Assembly: GCF_012641365.1 (NCBI RefSeq)
Contig: NZ_JABAIM010000002.1
Coordinates: 248,001-312,000 of the forward strand
From: Leeia aquatica
GTDB lineage: Bacteria > Pseudomonadota > Gammaproteobacteria > Burkholderiales > Leeiaceae
Reading direction: 5' to 3'
Length of the DNA: 64,000 nucleotides
Every line of letters begins with the position of its first letter. Positions within the stretch are counted from its first letter, which is position 1. Below are positions 56,876-64,000 of this stretch, in pieces. A program made the translations under genes and the position numbers. Below the pieces are notes generated by a model. That model was not told where the DNA came from, did no database searches, and saw only the letters and a list, made by a program, of their open reading frames with translations.

Positions 56876-57730
56876 CTAGGGAAGCCATAAGGCGGACAAG
56901 CGTACTTGTCGCTCCAGGCGAATGCTGCCTTGCTGGCTACGCTCCACCCAGCTCACCGTTCGCCAGTAGCGCCCACGGGGGAGTGTCAGTGGCGGGAAGG
57001 ACTGTGGCAAGACCTGTTCGTGCGCCTCATGCCAGACCGGCAGCCAGTTTTTGCGCCCCAGGTCGTAGATGGCCATCCGTAGCTCTGGTACAGGGCAGGA
57101 GGGGGGCAACGGGGGCGCAGGTGCAATTTGCCAGCCCTCTTCACCCGTATTTCTCAGCACCCCTTCCGGCAAGGCGGGTGGCAAAATCAGCCATTGCTGC
57201 TGAGGGGTGCCCCCCGGAGCCTTCCATACCAGCCGATACAAGCCCGCTCGCCAAGGCAAGGGTTCATCCGGGGTGGCCAGATCAAACTCACCGTTGGCTG
57301 TCCACTGAATGGGTGTAGCCTTGCTCTGCTGATCCAGCAGTACCGCACCATCTTGCCGGATCAGCTGCAGTTGCGTCAGCCGCTGTCGACTCACGCCATG
57401 CAAGCGTACTCGATAGCGCTGCATTAACGGCTCGCGAATCCGATCCAGCTCCAGTGTCCAGACCGGGTTGGCCATGGTAATAGCCGGAGCCAGCGTCTTG
57501 CCGCATTCCTGTTGCAACAGTAGCGGCCAGGCTGCGATTAGCTGTTGTTGCCAGTCCGCGTTGCCAGCCTGCCAGGCCTCCACCCAGGCGGGCAGCAGCG
57601 CATCGACCCGCCCTTCGAGCACCGCTTGATGAAAGCGCGTCATGGCATCCTGCCGCATGAACCACGCCGAGGGTGCCGCTTGTACACCCGCGCAAAAAAG
57701 GGCACACACCCAACCGGCCCCCCCCCTCAT
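56876..57730 (-). CDS. Secreted protein, possible DUF2861-like component
   Basis: A 284-residue protein with a signal peptide (residues 1-18, ending VQA). The first half is helical (about 25-95), with QDAMTRFHQAVLEGRVDALL and QECGKTLAP. The second half looks like beta-sandwich domains, with the repeating pattern RLVWKAPGGTPQQQWLILPP. The organisation recalls DUF2861 proteins that accompany the VxrAB two-component system in Vibrio; I could not confirm this. Its ATG overlaps the response regulator stop by 4 nt (57727-57730), so it is co-translated with it. The glycosidase-like gene follows after 100 nt. Confidence 0.6.
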   Translation of the reverse strand: MRGGAGWVCALFCAGVQAAPSAWFMRQDAMTRFHQAVLEGRVDALLPAWVEAWQAGNADWQQQLIAAWPLLLQQECGKTLAPAITMANPVWTLELDRIREPLMQRYRVRLHGVSRQRLTQLQLIRQDGAVLLDQQSKATPIQWTANGEFDLATPDEPLPWRAGLYRLVWKAPGGTPQQQWLILPPALPEGVLRNTGEEGWQIAPAPPLPPSCPVPELRMAIYDLGRKNWLPVWHEAHEQVLPQSFPPLTLPRGRYWRTVSWVERSQQGSIRLERQVRLSALWLP

Positions 57731-58380
57731 GACGGGCTCACGATTTGCAGCCGGTAGCCCAACCCGCGCAGGGTCTCAAGTGGCAGGCCCGGCAGCTTCT
57801 GCCGCAGTTGCAGGACATGGGTATCCACCGTGCGCGTGGTCGGGAAGTGATCGTAACCCCATACCTGATTCAGCAGCTCATCACGGGTCAACACTTTGCC
57901 CAGGTGCGATACCAGGCAGCCAAGCAAATCATACTCGGTACGGGTCAACCCCACTTCCTCACCCTGCCAGTACGCCTTGCGCTCACGCAACACCAGCTCC
58001 AGCGCCCCCACCACCCGACGCTCAGGCTCGACGCCACGCAGCTGTACCCGCACCCGCGCCAGCAGCTCTTCCACTGCAAACGGCTTGCTGATGTAATCAC
58101 AGGCCCCGGCATCCAGTCCGGCAATCCGGTCACGCACGTCGACCCGTGCCGTCAGCAGCAGCACCGGGATGGGCTTGAGTTGCAACCAGGCGGGCAACCG
58201 GTCCAGTGCATCCCCTTCCGGCAACTGCCGGTCCAGAATCGCCAGATCAACAGCTGGCCAGTGCTCCGGCACGGCGGCCATTTGCAGCAGCCAGTGGCAA
58301 CGGTAACCCTCGCGCTCCAGCGCCTCCTTTACCCCTGCACCCACACCGGGGTCATCTTCCAGCAACAGGATGGTATTCAT
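57727..58380 (-). CDS. OmpR-family response regulator, possibly VxrB-like
   Basis: A 217-residue regulator with receiver acidic pair Glu8-Asp9-Asp10 (LLLEDDPG), phospho-acceptor Asp50 in LAILDRQLPEGDALD, Lys in YISKPFAVEELLARV, and a winged-helix output with TRTEYDLLGCLVSHLGKVLT and VDTHVLQLRQKLPG. ATG at 58380 overlaps the kinase stop (ATGA, 58377-58380); the longer frame upstream is inside the kinase gene. Such coupling to the kinase on one side and a secreted protein on the other is unusual and marks a dedicated system. Confidence 0.87.
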   Translation of the reverse strand: MNTILLLEDDPGVGAGVKEALEREGYRCHWLLQMAAVPEHWPAVDLAILDRQLPEGDALDRLPAWLQLKPIPVLLLTARVDVRDRIAGLDAGACDYISKPFAVEELLARVRVQLRGVEPERRVVGALELVLRERKAYWQGEEVGLTRTEYDLLGCLVSHLGKVLTRDELLNQVWGYDHFPTTRTVDTHVLQLRQKLPGLPLETLRGLGYRLQIVSPS

Positions 58381-59795
58381 GCTTTGGGCAACACCAGGCT
58401 GAAACAGGTCGGCGGCCCCGACAGGCTGAGATGGCCACCCATACGCCGAATCATGGCTTCCACAATGGTCAGCCCCAGGCCCATACCCTGTCGACTTTGA
58501 AAAGGCCGAAGCAAGGCAGGCAACGCACGTGCCGTCAACGCACCTTGGTCCATGATCTTCAACCGCACCCATTTGCGGTCTGCTTCTACTTGCACCCTGA
58601 CTGCCCCCTGTCCGTGCTGCTGTGCGTTACGCAGCAGGTTGTCAAAACAGGTGGCCAACCAGTAAGGACTGACTTGCACGGCACCATCACAGATGACTTC
58701 GAGTGGCACAGATGTTTCATCCAGGCGTTGTCTGGCCCATTCGGCCACGGAGGGGAGATGCTGCATCGCAGCAGCCTCTGCACCGGACTGCAAGTAGTCT
58801 CGGCTGGCTTCCGCCAGTTTTCTCAACCGTACCCCATCATCACACAGGCGAGCAAACAGCGGGTGAACCTCGGCAGGCAAATGATCAAACCGGGCCCGTA
58901 ACCCTTCAATGGTCAGCCCAAGGCTGGCGATGGGCGTGCGCAACTCATGGGTCAGCACCTGCAGAATGAGCTGTCGCTCCCGCGCGGCGCGGCGGCGCAG
59001 CCAGAGCCGTTGCAACAGCATGGCCAGACTCACACCCAGCAGCAATAGCAGGATGATCCCGTACCATAGCCAACGGGGTGTCGGTTCTGACAAGCGCCAG
59101 CATCCCGCTCCCACCGGATACGGGCAGAAGCCTTCATCCCGCTCTGGCTGCCAGTGCAGGTCCTGCTGTGCCAGCAAGGGCTGCCAGACCTCCGGCGCAT
59201 ACACGCGGTAGCCGCCGGACTGCGCCATCAGCAAGCGATCTCCCGCCTGTATCCAGGGCTCACCATCCAGCAAGCGATTCAACTGCGCGTCATTCAAGCG
59301 GCTGAGCTGCGCCAGCATGCCCTGCTGGGAAGCTGGAAACACACGCTCGCGCAAATGGAGGTAGGGCTGCAAGGCAGCACGCCGTGCAGGCGCTTGCTGC
59401 AAGGTTCGCGCTGCATAACTGCCGCCGCCGGGATGAATCCAGCCCGAGCGGGCATACCAGGCATCTGGCAACGCGCGATTTTCACAGCGAGCACGCTCAA
59501 ACTCCACGGCGGCCTGCAGACCGGGCCAGTCTGGCAACGGCCCCTGGCATTGTTGCTGATAACGGTACAGCTGCTGCAATGCGTCGAGCGGGTAACGGCT
59601 GGTTTGCGGCTCCATCTGCGCCGGCTGCAGCAGGGGTAAGGGCAATGCCCGCTGCAGGTCCTCGCCACGCCACACCATCAGCACAGGCGCCTGCAGCATG
59701 GATTGGCGAAACCCCTGGTAAGCCTGGTCCACCGAGCCCGCAGCCGCATGCAGCAGCCATGGACAGAGCCACAGCAAGCCCAGCCAGACCCTCAC
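58377..59795 (-). CDS. Sensor histidine kinase with large periplasmic domain, possibly VxrA-like
   Basis: A 472-residue kinase from a GTG start at 59795 (GTGA overlap with the previous stop), giving a signal-like first helix (MRVWLGLLWLCPWLLHAAAG). A periplasmic domain of about 220 residues follows, with four cysteines (Cys83, Cys104, Cys224 and Cys232) and YARSGWIHPGGGSYAARTL. A membrane helix covers about 242-262, the phospho-acceptor is His283 in LTHELRTPIASLGL, and the ATPase has FDNLLRNAQQHGQ and GMGLGLTIVEAMIRRMGG. The periplasmic part recalls DUF3404 of Vibrio VxrA, a cell-wall stress sensor. That link is from memory and context. Confidence 0.82.
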   Translation of the reverse strand: MRVWLGLLWLCPWLLHAAAGSVDQAYQGFRQSMLQAPVLMVWRGEDLQRALPLPLLQPAQMEPQTSRYPLDALQQLYRYQQQCQGPLPDWPGLQAAVEFERARCENRALPDAWYARSGWIHPGGGSYAARTLQQAPARRAALQPYLHLRERVFPASQQGMLAQLSRLNDAQLNRLLDGEPWIQAGDRLLMAQSGGYRVYAPEVWQPLLAQQDLHWQPERDEGFCPYPVGAGCWRLSEPTPRWLWYGIILLLLLGVSLAMLLQRLWLRRRAARERQLILQVLTHELRTPIASLGLTIEGLRARFDHLPAEVHPLFARLCDDGVRLRKLAEASRDYLQSGAEAAAMQHLPSVAEWARQRLDETSVPLEVICDGAVQVSPYWLATCFDNLLRNAQQHGQGAVRVQVEADRKWVRLKIMDQGALTARALPALLRPFQSRQGMGLGLTIVEAMIRRMGGHLSLSGPPTCFSLVLPKA

Positions 59796-60775
59796 GCCGA
59801 CTTCACGCCCTGGTTGGCCCAATGTCTGCACTGCTGGAACCGCTCCTCACTGTCCCAGGCATCCATGATCGGTGTGGTCACCCTGCCCAGTAATTCCCGC
59901 GTCTTGGCCTTGTCTCCCTTCAGACAGGCAAAGTAGGCGAAGTTATTGATATTCCACTGATCCGGGTATTGACGCAGTACATCGTCCATGGCGTTTTTCA
60001 TCCGCGGCCAATTGACCTTCGTGTCTTGAAACAAACGATCGCCAAAGTAAGCTTCGGCAGCGTACCAGTAGACACGGGCATAGGGCCCATCACCATCGGT
60101 TGCCTTGTTATTGCGTGCCGCACGCGAAGCAATGCCCTCCAGATGATATGGTAATTGGGTGGTATTGCATCGGTAGTATTCCAGCGCTGCGAAATACATT
60201 TGATAGTGCGCGGGGAAGCGCGTCATACCCTCTTCCAACAACTTGTCGAACTCCTGGGGCTTCCAGTCATGGGTGCATCCTGCGTAACCAATCTGGACAT
60301 ACCAGGAAGGATCTTTGTCCGAAAAGGATTTCGTATGCAAAAGTAAGTCATAGCCCCGTCTCCAGAATAAAGAGGCCTGTTCTCGCCCCCTGTCCGAGCG
60401 TATCTGCCGCCCCCGTTCCAACAGTGCGGCCGCGTAGGCAATTACCGGCGTCGCCGAAGCGGGGAAACGCTTTTGCCAGCGCAGCAGCGTCTGTTCAACT
60501 TTGTTCCAATGTTGGTCATTTGCCAGGTCCATCCACGAAAAGCTCATGTAAAACTGCGTCAGCGCCCATACGCCACTTCCAGTGCGAGTTTGCCGATCCC
60601 GAAAAATCTGGGCCACCTTTTCCAGATCGTCAAACTTTTCCCGCTGCAAGCTCTCCTGAACCTGTAGCTTGAGTCGTGTCCGAAATGTCAGCTCATCCTC
60701 TGCCTGTACCGAAATACTCAGCAGCAGCATGAATCCGATCAACCCAACACGAGCCCAGCTAGTGCCAAACCGCAT
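59792..60775 (-). CDS. Secreted helical (TPR-like) protein of unknown function
   Basis: A 327-residue protein with a signal peptide (about 1-25, ending SVQA) and a mainly helical mature part with repeating Trp/Tyr/Ala-rich helix pairs (WKPQEFDKLLEEGMTRFPAH, YQMYFAALEYYR, and ARVYWYAAEAYFG). This resembles tetratricopeptide or DUF4034-type repeats. CAGGAGAGG lies before the ATG at 60775. It is the first gene of the coupled operon, its stop overlapping the kinase GTG start. A periplasmic partner or signal-modifying role for the kinase is plausible but unproven. Confidence 0.65.
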   Translation of the reverse strand: MRFGTSWARVGLIGFMLLLSISVQAEDELTFRTRLKLQVQESLQREKFDDLEKVAQIFRDRQTRTGSGVWALTQFYMSFSWMDLANDQHWNKVEQTLLRWQKRFPASATPVIAYAAALLERGRQIRSDRGREQASLFWRRGYDLLLHTKSFSDKDPSWYVQIGYAGCTHDWKPQEFDKLLEEGMTRFPAHYQMYFAALEYYRCNTTQLPYHLEGIASRAARNNKATDGDGPYARVYWYAAEAYFGDRLFQDTKVNWPRMKNAMDDVLRQYPDQWNINNFAYFACLKGDKAKTRELLGRVTTPIMDAWDSEERFQQCRHWANQGVKSA

Positions 60776-61421: not shown

Positions 61422-61963
61422 GCGTGCATATGTCACTCACGGCCCACACATACAGTATCCCCAGCTTCGAATCCGAACGTCTGCTGCTGCGCCCTTTCCA
61501 GCAGGCAGACTTTGAAGCGATGGCCCGTTTTTTTGCGGATCCGGTATCCCAGTTTTACGGCGGTCCCTGCTCACGAGAGGATGCCTGGCGCAAGATGGCG
61601 GTATACGCCGGCCACTGGCTGCTGCATGGCTATGGCCCATGGGCGCTGGAGGAGAAGGCCAGTGGGCAGTTTGTCGGCCTGTCCGGCCCCTGGTTTCCGG
61701 AAGGCTGGCCAGAGCCGGAAATTACCTGGGCACTGCTGCCGGAGCATCATGGCAAAGGCTACGCGACCGAAGCCGCTAGGCGTGCCCTGCAAGCGGCTTA
61801 TGAGTATTGTGGCTGGACCACGGCCATCAGCGTGGTCGCTACCGGCAATGTCGCTTCACGGGCCGTAGCCGAGCGTCTGGGGGCCCAGCTGGAAGCCACC
61901 ATGCCATTTCGTGGCGGCGAAGGCTGGCGCTTCCGTCATCTCTCCCCTGCGATGCTGCGCTAA
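61418..61963 (+). CDS. GNAT family N-acetyltransferase (RimJ/RimL-like)
   Basis: A 181-residue acetyltransferase of the RimJ/RimL-like class. It has SERLLLRPFQQADFEAMARF at the start, the acetyl-CoA pyrophosphate loop LLPEHHGKGYATEAARRAL (about 109-127), and VATGNVASRAVAERLGAQLE in the last core strand. The substrate is unknown; such enzymes acetylate protein N-termini or small amines. The start overlaps the preceding stop by 4 nt (ATGA), with an alternative ATG at 61430. Confidence 0.9.
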   Translation: MSVHMSLTAHTYSIPSFESERLLLRPFQQADFEAMARFFADPVSQFYGGPCSREDAWRKMAVYAGHWLLHGYGPWALEEKASGQFVGLSGPWFPEGWPEPEITWALLPEHHGKGYATEAARRALQAAYEYCGWTTAISVVATGNVASRAVAERLGAQLEATMPFRGGEGWRFRHLSPAMLR

Positions 61964-62265
61964 CCTCCCCTTTATACCCAGTCATGTCATGGACATGGTC
62001 GCCTGCCCCGATTCGACATCCTCCGGGGCAGGTCAGCCCTCCTGATCAACACTCTCCATTTTTTACCTCACGCTCATTCCTGCGTTCCCACCGCCTGTCG
62101 GGACAATGACCGCAGCATCAACGGGCTACCTCTCATTTTTCTAGCACCATAGATGACTACGTCATTTTTTATAATTATTTTTTACTTTAAATATCAATTA
62201 CTTAAACAAAGATTACATTTATATGCGATGGGAATTTTTATAGAAAACATGGGTTTTAACAAATT

Positions 62266-62295
62266 TTGACAATTCAAACTGGGCCTACGTACGAT
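62266..62295 (+). promoter_or_regulatory. Sigma70-type promoter of the FeeM-like gene
   Basis: A perfect -35 TTGACA (62266-62271), an 18-nt spacer and TACGAT (62290-62295) as -10. It lies downstream of the AT-rich block and about 75 nt before the start codon. Confidence 0.6.
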
Positions 62296-62327
62296 AAGAA
62301 AAAGCCTCACCAGACGCGTACGGAAGG

Positions 62328-62360
62328 GGCAAAGGATGTCTTTGGACACCCCCTTTTGCC
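62328..62360 (+). other. Leader hairpin before the FeeM-like gene
   Basis: GGCAAAGG (62328-62335) and CCTTTTGCC (62352-62360) pair with one bulge, enclosing a second stem TGTC-TTTG-GACA (62337-62348). The ribosome binding site AGGG starts 3 nt after its end, so the fold could influence translation. Confidence 0.5.
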
Positions 62361-62375
62361 ACAGGGATGAAGTAT

Positions 62376-63071
62376 ATGAGCAGGGAAAGTTACACCATTG
62401 CAGGACTGGAACTGTCCGCTGAGTCAGGAAAGTCATGCATCGTTCCGACGTTGCAGACTTACAAGATTCGCCTGTCACGCAGCGGCCAAAACCAGGCCTT
62501 GCTACACCGGATGTACGCCAGCCGGGGTTACAGCATGGAAACCACCATCAGCCATGCACCGGACGCCAGCACCATCGTCGCGCAGGTGGGCGAGAATGCC
62601 TTGGGCACCCTCAGTGTCAATTTCAAAAGTGAGGCCTTGTCTGCCGCACAGCTGTACCCGGAGATCATCAGCCGTCTGCATGCGGAAGGGCGTCGCCTGT
62701 GTGAATTCGGCCGCTTTGCTGTTGACCCCAATGTTCGCTCCAAGCGCGTACTGGGTGCCATGTTTCACATTGCCATGCTGATTGCCTGTCGCTTGCGCGG
62801 AGCTTCGGACATCGTGATCGAAGTCAATCCGCGCCATGTCGGCTTCTATCATCGCGCACTCGGTTTCAGCATCATCGGCGAAGAGCGCCTGTGCCAGCGC
62901 GTGAATGCACCCGCAGTGCTGCTGCATATCCCCATCGCTTATGCCCAGCAACAGATACAGCGCTTTGGTGGTCGCCCGGATCTGGCCGCCAAGGAGCGCT
63001 CGTTCTATCCCTATTTTTTCTCGCCAGTGGATGAAGCCGGCATCCTGAACCGCCTGCAACAGCTCGACTAA
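62376..63071 (+). CDS. FeeM-like N-acyl amino acid synthase (GNAT fold)
   Basis: A 231-residue protein of the long-chain N-acyl amino acid synthase family. It shows TYKIRLSRSGQNQALLHRMYASRGY at about 28-52 (in 20-residue terms, QALLHRMYASRGY), then GTLSVNFKSEALSAAQLYPE, CEFGRFAVDPNVRSKRVLGA and IVIEVNPRHVGFYHRALGFS, with NAPAVLLHIPI near the end. These match FeeM-type enzymes, which join an acyl chain from acyl carrier protein to an amino acid. The start at 62376 is preferred to 62367, because AGGG is 9 nt upstream of it but directly abuts the other. A ThiF-like gene follows after 39 nt. Confidence 0.85.
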   Translation: MSRESYTIAGLELSAESGKSCIVPTLQTYKIRLSRSGQNQALLHRMYASRGYSMETTISHAPDASTIVAQVGENALGTLSVNFKSEALSAAQLYPEIISRLHAEGRRLCEFGRFAVDPNVRSKRVLGAMFHIAMLIACRLRGASDIVIEVNPRHVGFYHRALGFSIIGEERLCQRVNAPAVLLHIPIAYAQQQIQRFGGRPDLAAKERSFYPYFFSPVDEAGILNRLQQLD

Positions 63072-63110
63072 GCCTGCCGGGTGGCATTTGATCAGAAGTG
63101 AGTACTTGTC

Positions 63111-63986
63111 ATGTTGTTTGACTATGGTGAGGCATTTTCCCGCAATCTGGGTTGGGTCACGGAAGCCGAGCAATCCACGCTACAGCGCAAACGCGTAGCG
63201 ATTGCGGGGCTGGGTGGCGTAGGCGGCAGCCATTTGCTGACCCTGACCCGACTCGGCATCGGCGCGTTCACGCTGGCCGACTTTGACCGTTTCGATGTCG
63301 CCAACTTCAACCGCCAGGCCGGGGCCATGATCAGCACGGTAAGCCAGCCCAAACTGGACGTGATGCAGCGCATGGCATTGGACATCAACCCACAACTGGA
63401 CATCCGACCTTTCCCCCAGGGCATCTCCAACGCCGACCTGGATGACTTCCTGACCGGAGTGGATCTGTATGTCGACAGTCTGGACTTCTTTGCCTTTGAC
63501 ATCCGGCGCGCCATCTTTGCCGCCTGCCAGCACAGAGGCATCCCGGCCATCACCGCAGCCCCGCTCGGCATGGGCACCGCTTTCCTTGCTTTCCTGCCGG
63601 GCAGCATGTCTTTTGATGACTACTTTCAGATGGCAGGCCAGAGTGATCTGGAGCAGGCCCTGCGCTTCTTGCTGGGTCTGGCACCCAGCATGCTGCATAT
63701 GGGCTATCTGGCGGACTATAGCCGGGTTCGCCTTGACCTCAAGAAAGGCCCGTCTACGGTCATGGCCTGCCAGCTGTGTGCTGGTGTGGCCGCCACGGAA
63801 GCGCTGAAAATCCTGCTGAACCGTGGCAAGGTCGTCGCCGCCCCGAGGGGAATCCACTACGATGCCTATCGGCAGAAGCTGCGTCATACCTGGTTGCCCG
63901 GCGGCAACCGCCATCCGCTGCAGCAGCTCAAGCTCGCCATCATGCGGCGAATCCTGCGTAAAAAACTGGCGATGGCACCCGCATGA
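63111..63986 (+). CDS. ThiF/E1-like adenylyltransferase
   Basis: A 291-residue member of the ThiF/MoeB/E1 superfamily. The ATP site is complete: GLGGVGG (33-39), Asp59 in ADFDRFDVANFNRQ, Arg68, Lys81 in SQPKLD and Asp122/Asp125 in YVDSLDFF, with Arg11 before the first strand. Only one CxxC (Cys220-Cys223) is seen, so a full structural zinc site is doubtful, and there is no rhodanese domain. Such enzymes activate a C-terminal carboxylate by adenylation. No ThiS- or MoaD-like partner gene is in the window. Pairing with a FeeM-like synthase suggests a carboxylate made by that enzyme, or a small peptide, as substrate. It is coupled to a further gene by ATGA. Confidence 0.88.
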   Translation: MLFDYGEAFSRNLGWVTEAEQSTLQRKRVAIAGLGGVGGSHLLTLTRLGIGAFTLADFDRFDVANFNRQAGAMISTVSQPKLDVMQRMALDINPQLDIRPFPQGISNADLDDFLTGVDLYVDSLDFFAFDIRRAIFAACQHRGIPAITAAPLGMGTAFLAFLPGSMSFDDYFQMAGQSDLEQALRFLLGLAPSMLHMGYLADYSRVRLDLKKGPSTVMACQLCAGVAATEALKILLNRGKVVAAPRGIHYDAYRQKLRHTWLPGGNRHPLQQLKLAIMRRILRKKLAMAPA

Positions 63987-64000
63987 AGCCAGACTGTCCG
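63983..64000 (+). CDS. Start of a third gene in the FeeM-ThiF operon, cut by window edge
   Basis: ATG at 63983 overlaps the ThiF-like stop codon (ATGA) and the frame stays open for six codons (MKPDCP) to the end of the window. Translational coupling makes a real gene likely, but its product cannot be named. Confidence 0.5.

Follow-up and report, generated by a model that had tools for sequence, protein, structure and literature searches.

N-acyl oxazolones are made by three activities acting together, a FeeM-fold acyltransferase, a ThiF cyclase and a nitroreductase of the FDO type (PMC10404671; PMC12856293), and this three-enzyme biosynthesis has been characterised biochemically in reports of 2021, 2023 and 2025. 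The first such system was OxzAB of Pseudoalteromonas rubra (de Rond et al., 2021, as cited in PMC10404671). In the set tyzA, tyzB and tyzC, which has been reconstituted as three genes, TyzA acylates tyrosine or phenylalanine, TyzB cyclises the product with ATP and TyzC desaturates it with O2 (PMC10404671); in the formation of tryptazolones, cyclase and desaturase are fused in one protein, TrzS (PMC12856293). Massilia kyonggiensis and Thalassotalea, which produce kyonggic and thalassotalic acids, carry operons of the same type (PMC12479983).

Here we describe a three-gene operon of Leeia aquatica which, as predicted from its genes, in all probability makes a lipid of the Oxz/Tyz/Trz kind, either an N-acyl oxazolone (azlactone) or the dehydro-amino acid left when its ring is opened. 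The locus is very likely a further member of the known pathway, in a lineage from which there was no earlier description. The basis for this in L. aquatica is gene content, gene order, folds, conserved residues and conservation among relatives. The three reactions have been shown by others in homologs, whereas we infer which amino acid and acyl chain L. aquatica uses and what the product does for it.

The stretch of DNA analysed (the window, 64,000 nucleotides) corresponds to contig C2:248001-312000 of a 3.56-Mb genome, and its main features are collected in Table 1. The three genes are co-directional, with a gap of 39 nt between the FeeM and ThiF genes and an ATGA overlap of 4 nt between the ThiF and nitroreductase genes, such that all three functions are immediate neighbours. 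The first-pass annotation of the window had read here a FeeM gene, an adenylating enzyme with a complete ATP site and the start of a gene overlapping by ATGA, all of which is borne out by our searches (PF21926, ThiF and a 367-aa open reading frame). It had also proposed that the cluster runs past the window, and the third gene, completed from the contig beyond it (C2 311983-313086, or L002:2984-4087), indeed encodes a nitroreductase of the same pathway and not an unrelated housekeeping protein. It is because the third gene is a nitroreductase that the pathway could be identified. The operon comprises these three genes only, since those that follow, encoding a DUF1203 protein and then an Ada-like protein, are unrelated and start about 450 bases downstream.

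Table 1. Features of the Leeia aquatica operon (positions are those of the window).
Feature	Position	Strand	Evidence or remark
Promoter-like site TTGACA-18-TACGAT	62266..62295	+	10/12 consensus matches; L002:1267-1296; upstream of FeeM gene
FeeM-type N-acyl amino acid synthase	62367..63071	+	PF21926; 2G0B by sequence and fold; family alignment
ThiF/E1-like adenylating cyclase (predicted)	63111..63986	+	PF00899; PRK08223; PRK07877 ThiF part
Third gene, first 18 bases	63983..64000	+	FMN nitroreductase-type desaturase (FDO)

The operon is preceded by an intergenic stretch of about 400 bases (61963-62366) that is AT-rich, with a GC content of about 0.43 against 0.6 around it. The promoter-like site is a consensus match only, and such sites were found 3 times where 1.4 are expected by chance. 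Elsewhere in the window, a sensor kinase like Vibrio VxrA is encoded on the reverse strand at 58377-59831 (NF041841, E = 1e-127, below the model's cut-off), with a response-regulator-like open reading frame downstream of its gene (57727-58572, reverse strand).

The first gene encodes a protein of 234 aa; an alternative start at 62376, with AGGG about 9 nt upstream, is equally possible. The protein matches the Pfam family FeeM (PF21926, E = 7e-47) and, by sequence, FeeM from an environmental DNA clone (PDB 2G0B, E = 1e-9), and its AlphaFold model (pLDDT 88) finds the same entry as best fold match (E = 1.5e-12, TM 0.62/0.78), followed by acetyltransferases and AHL synthases. By family and by fold it is an acyltransferase of the FeeM/AHL-synthase type, N-acylation being its predicted activity. 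While fold and family are alike, identity to the 2G0B protein is about 24%, and that entry comes without the ThiF and nitroreductase partners. A search of the genome found a single FeeM copy, and the adjacency of FeeM and ThiF is therefore not a chance hit.

In an alignment with 43 homologs, this FeeM differs at two nearly invariant positions, K87 replacing a D found in 95% of the homologs and H105 an R found in 98%. It also has a short deletion around residues 37-38; the remaining conserved positions are retained. These changes may bear on substrate choice, and they count against the reading proposed here in that the substrate may differ. We consider it unlikely that they amount to a new specificity yielding an unseen acyl-oxazolone with a role of its own, for example as a diffusible signal. 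The related proposal that the amino acid or acyl chain is of a kind other than Tyr/Phe/Trp, and that the new acyl-oxazolone is a diffusible signal akin to an acyl-homoserine lactone, could draw on the two substitutions at such highly conserved positions (95-98%) and on the fold that FeeM has in common with AHL synthases. We judge it quite improbable: the operon contains no receptor or regulator gene, the other conserved FeeM positions are intact, and all characterised N-acyl oxazolones derive from aromatic amino acids (PMC12856293).

The second gene encodes a protein of 291 aa that matches Pfam ThiF (PF00899, E = 1e-42), NCBIfam PRK08223 (E = 7e-137) and the ThiF part of the TrzS-family model PRK07877 (E = 7e-20). 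Its ATP-site residues (R11, GxGGVG 33-38, D59, N65, R68, K81 and D125) are invariant across 67 homologs, and alignment with the MoeB and TcdA encoded in this genome shows counterparts of the adenylation-site residues in both. Aligned with that MoeB, on the other hand, the protein is seen to lack the catalytic Cys and the two zinc-binding CxxC pairs, and a conserved C220xxC223 is all that remains of these features. Because the adenylation site is intact and the sulfur-carrier features are missing, the enzyme most likely acts directly on the N-acyl amino acid, which would be activated and then closed to the azlactone; adenylation followed by intramolecular ring closure fits the residue pattern. 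TcdA, which cyclises a tRNA carboxylate without a carrier, offers a mechanistic parallel for such a ThiF-like cyclase.

A sulfur-carrier E1 (ThiF/MoeB proper) was considered and rejected as an identity for this protein, given the absent Cys and CxxC features, the lack of an adjoining carrier gene, and the presence of ThiS and an E1 on another contig (C1). More broadly, a ThiS/MoaD-like carrier or a small peptide might be what the enzyme activates, for sulfur transfer or peptide modification, with FeeM an incidental neighbour; membership of the ThiF/MoeB superfamily speaks for this. We regard it as highly improbable, as the protein has neither the catalytic Cys nor the zinc CxxC pairs, the locus has no carrier gene, ThiS and a canonical MoeB/ThiF-like E1 are encoded elsewhere in the genome, and the conserved neighbours are an acyltransferase and a desaturase, not sulfur genes. 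The earlier observation that the locus encodes no ThiS/MoaD-like carrier thus held; of the substrates suggested with it, an acylated amino acid is probably adenylated, whereas a small peptide is not supported, and neither is the suggested role of the product as a signal.

The third protein, of 367 aa, matches the C-terminal part of the Rv1355c family (TrzS; PRK07877, E = 9e-36); its match to the Acg family of FMN oxidoreductases has E = 9e-34. A profile of 22 homologs led to Acg itself (2YMV, E = 1.5e-15), which is also by far the best fold match of the AlphaFold model (pLDDT 92; E = 2e-13), and both this likeness and the length of the protein are those of the FDO type (Acg-like, about 340-370 aa). 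The residues P18, S19, D21, N22, R116, R120, R168, W272, Q283 and P284 are kept in all or nearly all homologs, with P18, S19, D21, N22, R168, Q283 and P284 being invariant and of the kind found at FMN sites. In M. smegmatis TrzS, D217, R540 and Q651 have been shown to be important, and mutating the latter two impaired FMN content and turnover (PMC12856293). Judged by motif and spacing, not by alignment, D125 of the ThiF protein and R168 and Q283 of the nitroreductase are likely the counterparts of these three; the spacing between R168 and Q283 is 115, as against 111 between R540 and Q651 of TrzS. Between them, the ThiF protein and the nitroreductase cover both halves of the Rv1355c (TrzS) family model, a fused cyclase-desaturase for which the reactions were measured (PMC12856293). 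The first-pass annotation had expected an unusual product; the same three-enzyme set is, however, already characterised as acyl-oxazolone biosynthesis.

We propose that the pathway would proceed in three steps. First, the FeeM-type enzyme would move a fatty acyl group from ACP or CoA onto the amino group of what is probably an aromatic amino acid. Second, the ThiF-like enzyme would use ATP to adenylate the free carboxylate, and the neighbouring amide oxygen would attack the adenylate to form the five-membered ring of the oxazolone, a route that involves neither a carrier protein nor a thioester. Third, the FMN nitroreductase-type enzyme would use O2 to strip two hydrogens and so introduce an alpha,beta-double bond, though the second and third steps may occur in reverse order. 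Hydrolysis of the ring would yield N-acyl dehydro-amino acids, of which kyonggic and thalassotalic acids are examples.

This last reaction raises the question of what is released. The end product of the operon could be open-chain, as producers of kyonggic acid, thalassotalic acid and stieleriacines show no observed oxazolone (PMC12479983). Massilia kyonggiensis and Thalassotalea have the same split type of operon, made up of an NAS gene with ThiF and nitroreductase genes in an overlapping arrangement, but open-chain dehydrotyrosines are what has been reported from these clusters (PMC12479983), and many of the loci related to ours belong to Massilia or Duganella. It is possible, if the less probable outcome, that the enzymes act as proposed and release an open-chain N-acyl-2,3-dehydro-amino acid, the oxazolone being a transient intermediate that aids desaturation; that TrzS cyclises before it desaturates is consistent with this. 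Oxazolones do, however, hydrolyse in acid and alcohol during extraction (PMC12856293), and the work-up itself may have given rise to the open-chain compounds.

As in TyzA-TyzB-TyzC of M. tuberculosis, there are three separate proteins, an acyltransferase of FeeM-like fold, a ThiF cyclase and a single-domain FDO of about 370 aa (PMC10404671), but tyzA lies on the opposite strand and encodes a longer, divergent acyltransferase, whereas here FeeM leads a co-directional acyltransferase-cyclase-desaturase operon. With OxzA-OxzB and TrzA-TrzS it has in common an acyltransferase adjoining ThiF and nitroreductase domains; in systems of the OxzB/TrzS type these two domains are fused, while here they are encoded by two genes that overlap by ATGA.

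With ThiF as sole query, matches at E <= 1e-25 were obtained in 66 of 399 genomes of the order. FeeM-ThiF adjacency, which the first-pass annotation had made a matter for comparison with related genomes, is conserved: among 37 named loci found by ThiF alone, 24 hold all three genes, six hold ThiF and the nitroreductase and seven hold ThiF only, and all three genes were present in 19 of 29 loci of the same order when only 1.5-kb flanks were considered. The ThiF query gave no match in the two genomes of the same genus, which lack the cluster. The left flank gave no DNA match to these two genomes and the right-flank protein no full-length close match, and the boundaries of an insertion could not be drawn. 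A search of plasmids returned distant copies only.

In 14 of the loci found by ThiF, a single protein combines ThiF with the nitroreductase. The nearest ThiF relatives of the L. aquatica protein, in a quick tree of moderate support, are all fused (Undibacterium pigrum, 72% identical, and genomes G077, G119, G033 and G278), and the linker of these proteins sits at the position of the ATGA overlap; the simplest reading is therefore that the split arose by gene fission in this lineage. A split produced by a sequencing frameshift is less probable, since the ATGA overlap and the intact ends of both proteins look natural. Sulfate reducers also carry the ThiF homolog, in four loci fused to the nitroreductase (L071-L074) and on Nitratidesulfovibrio plasmids (NC_008741.1 and others), although the characterised desaturation requires O2.

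The neighbourhoods of related loci differ from the one described here. In Azoarcus, Thauera, Neptunomonas and Thioalkalivibrio loci, the exosortase-associated acyltransferase TIGR03694 replaces FeeM beside the cyclase. Across loci of Rhodocyclaceae/Zoogloeaceae, Neptunomonas and Thioalkalivibrio (L039, L040, L041, L043, L046, L047, L048, L055, L067 and L070), TIGR03694 lies near the ThiF cyclase, whether or not the nitroreductase is also there, the match being confirmed in L039, L040, L043 and L047, which suggests that exosortase-linked acyl amino acids are also cyclised. PrsT (TIGR02917) of the XrtA/PEP-CTERM system is encoded directly upstream of the FeeM-ThiF-nitroreductase operon in many relatives. 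One such locus (PrsT at L045:2387-5167) also encodes the PEP-CTERM protein PepA (L045:8069-8944). PrsT homologs occur in 16 further named loci, mostly of Massilia/Duganella, where PrsT and PEP-CTERM proteins adjoin the operons. The oxazolone and stieleriacine reports PMC10404671, PMC12856293 and PMC12479983 make no mention of exosortase or PEP-CTERM.

MacB/FtsX permeases or an MMPL transporter, a LolA-like protein (PF17131) and DUF1302 recur beside the cyclase in other loci (L042, L047, L063 and L073), a set that looks like a lipid export route. Unlike the Massilia/Duganella-type loci with their PrsT and PepA genes, the L. aquatica locus is without PEP-CTERM or exosortase genes, and likewise without the lipid-export genes that many relatives keep alongside. 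An exosortase-linked reading was rejected for this genome, which has no exosortase (PF09721) and whose FeeM has no TIGR03694 match, as was a LolA-like export partner, no PF17131 protein being present in the genome.

The operon places a recently discovered but characterised lipid pathway in another betaproteobacterial lineage, and its compact form, with three co-directional genes, should lend itself readily to expression. What oxazolones do physiologically is an open question (PMC12856293). The neighbourhoods seen in relatives, with exosortase/PEP-CTERM, MacB/MMPL and LolA-like genes near the cyclase, suggest an envelope lipid or an exported one as the product in many bacteria.
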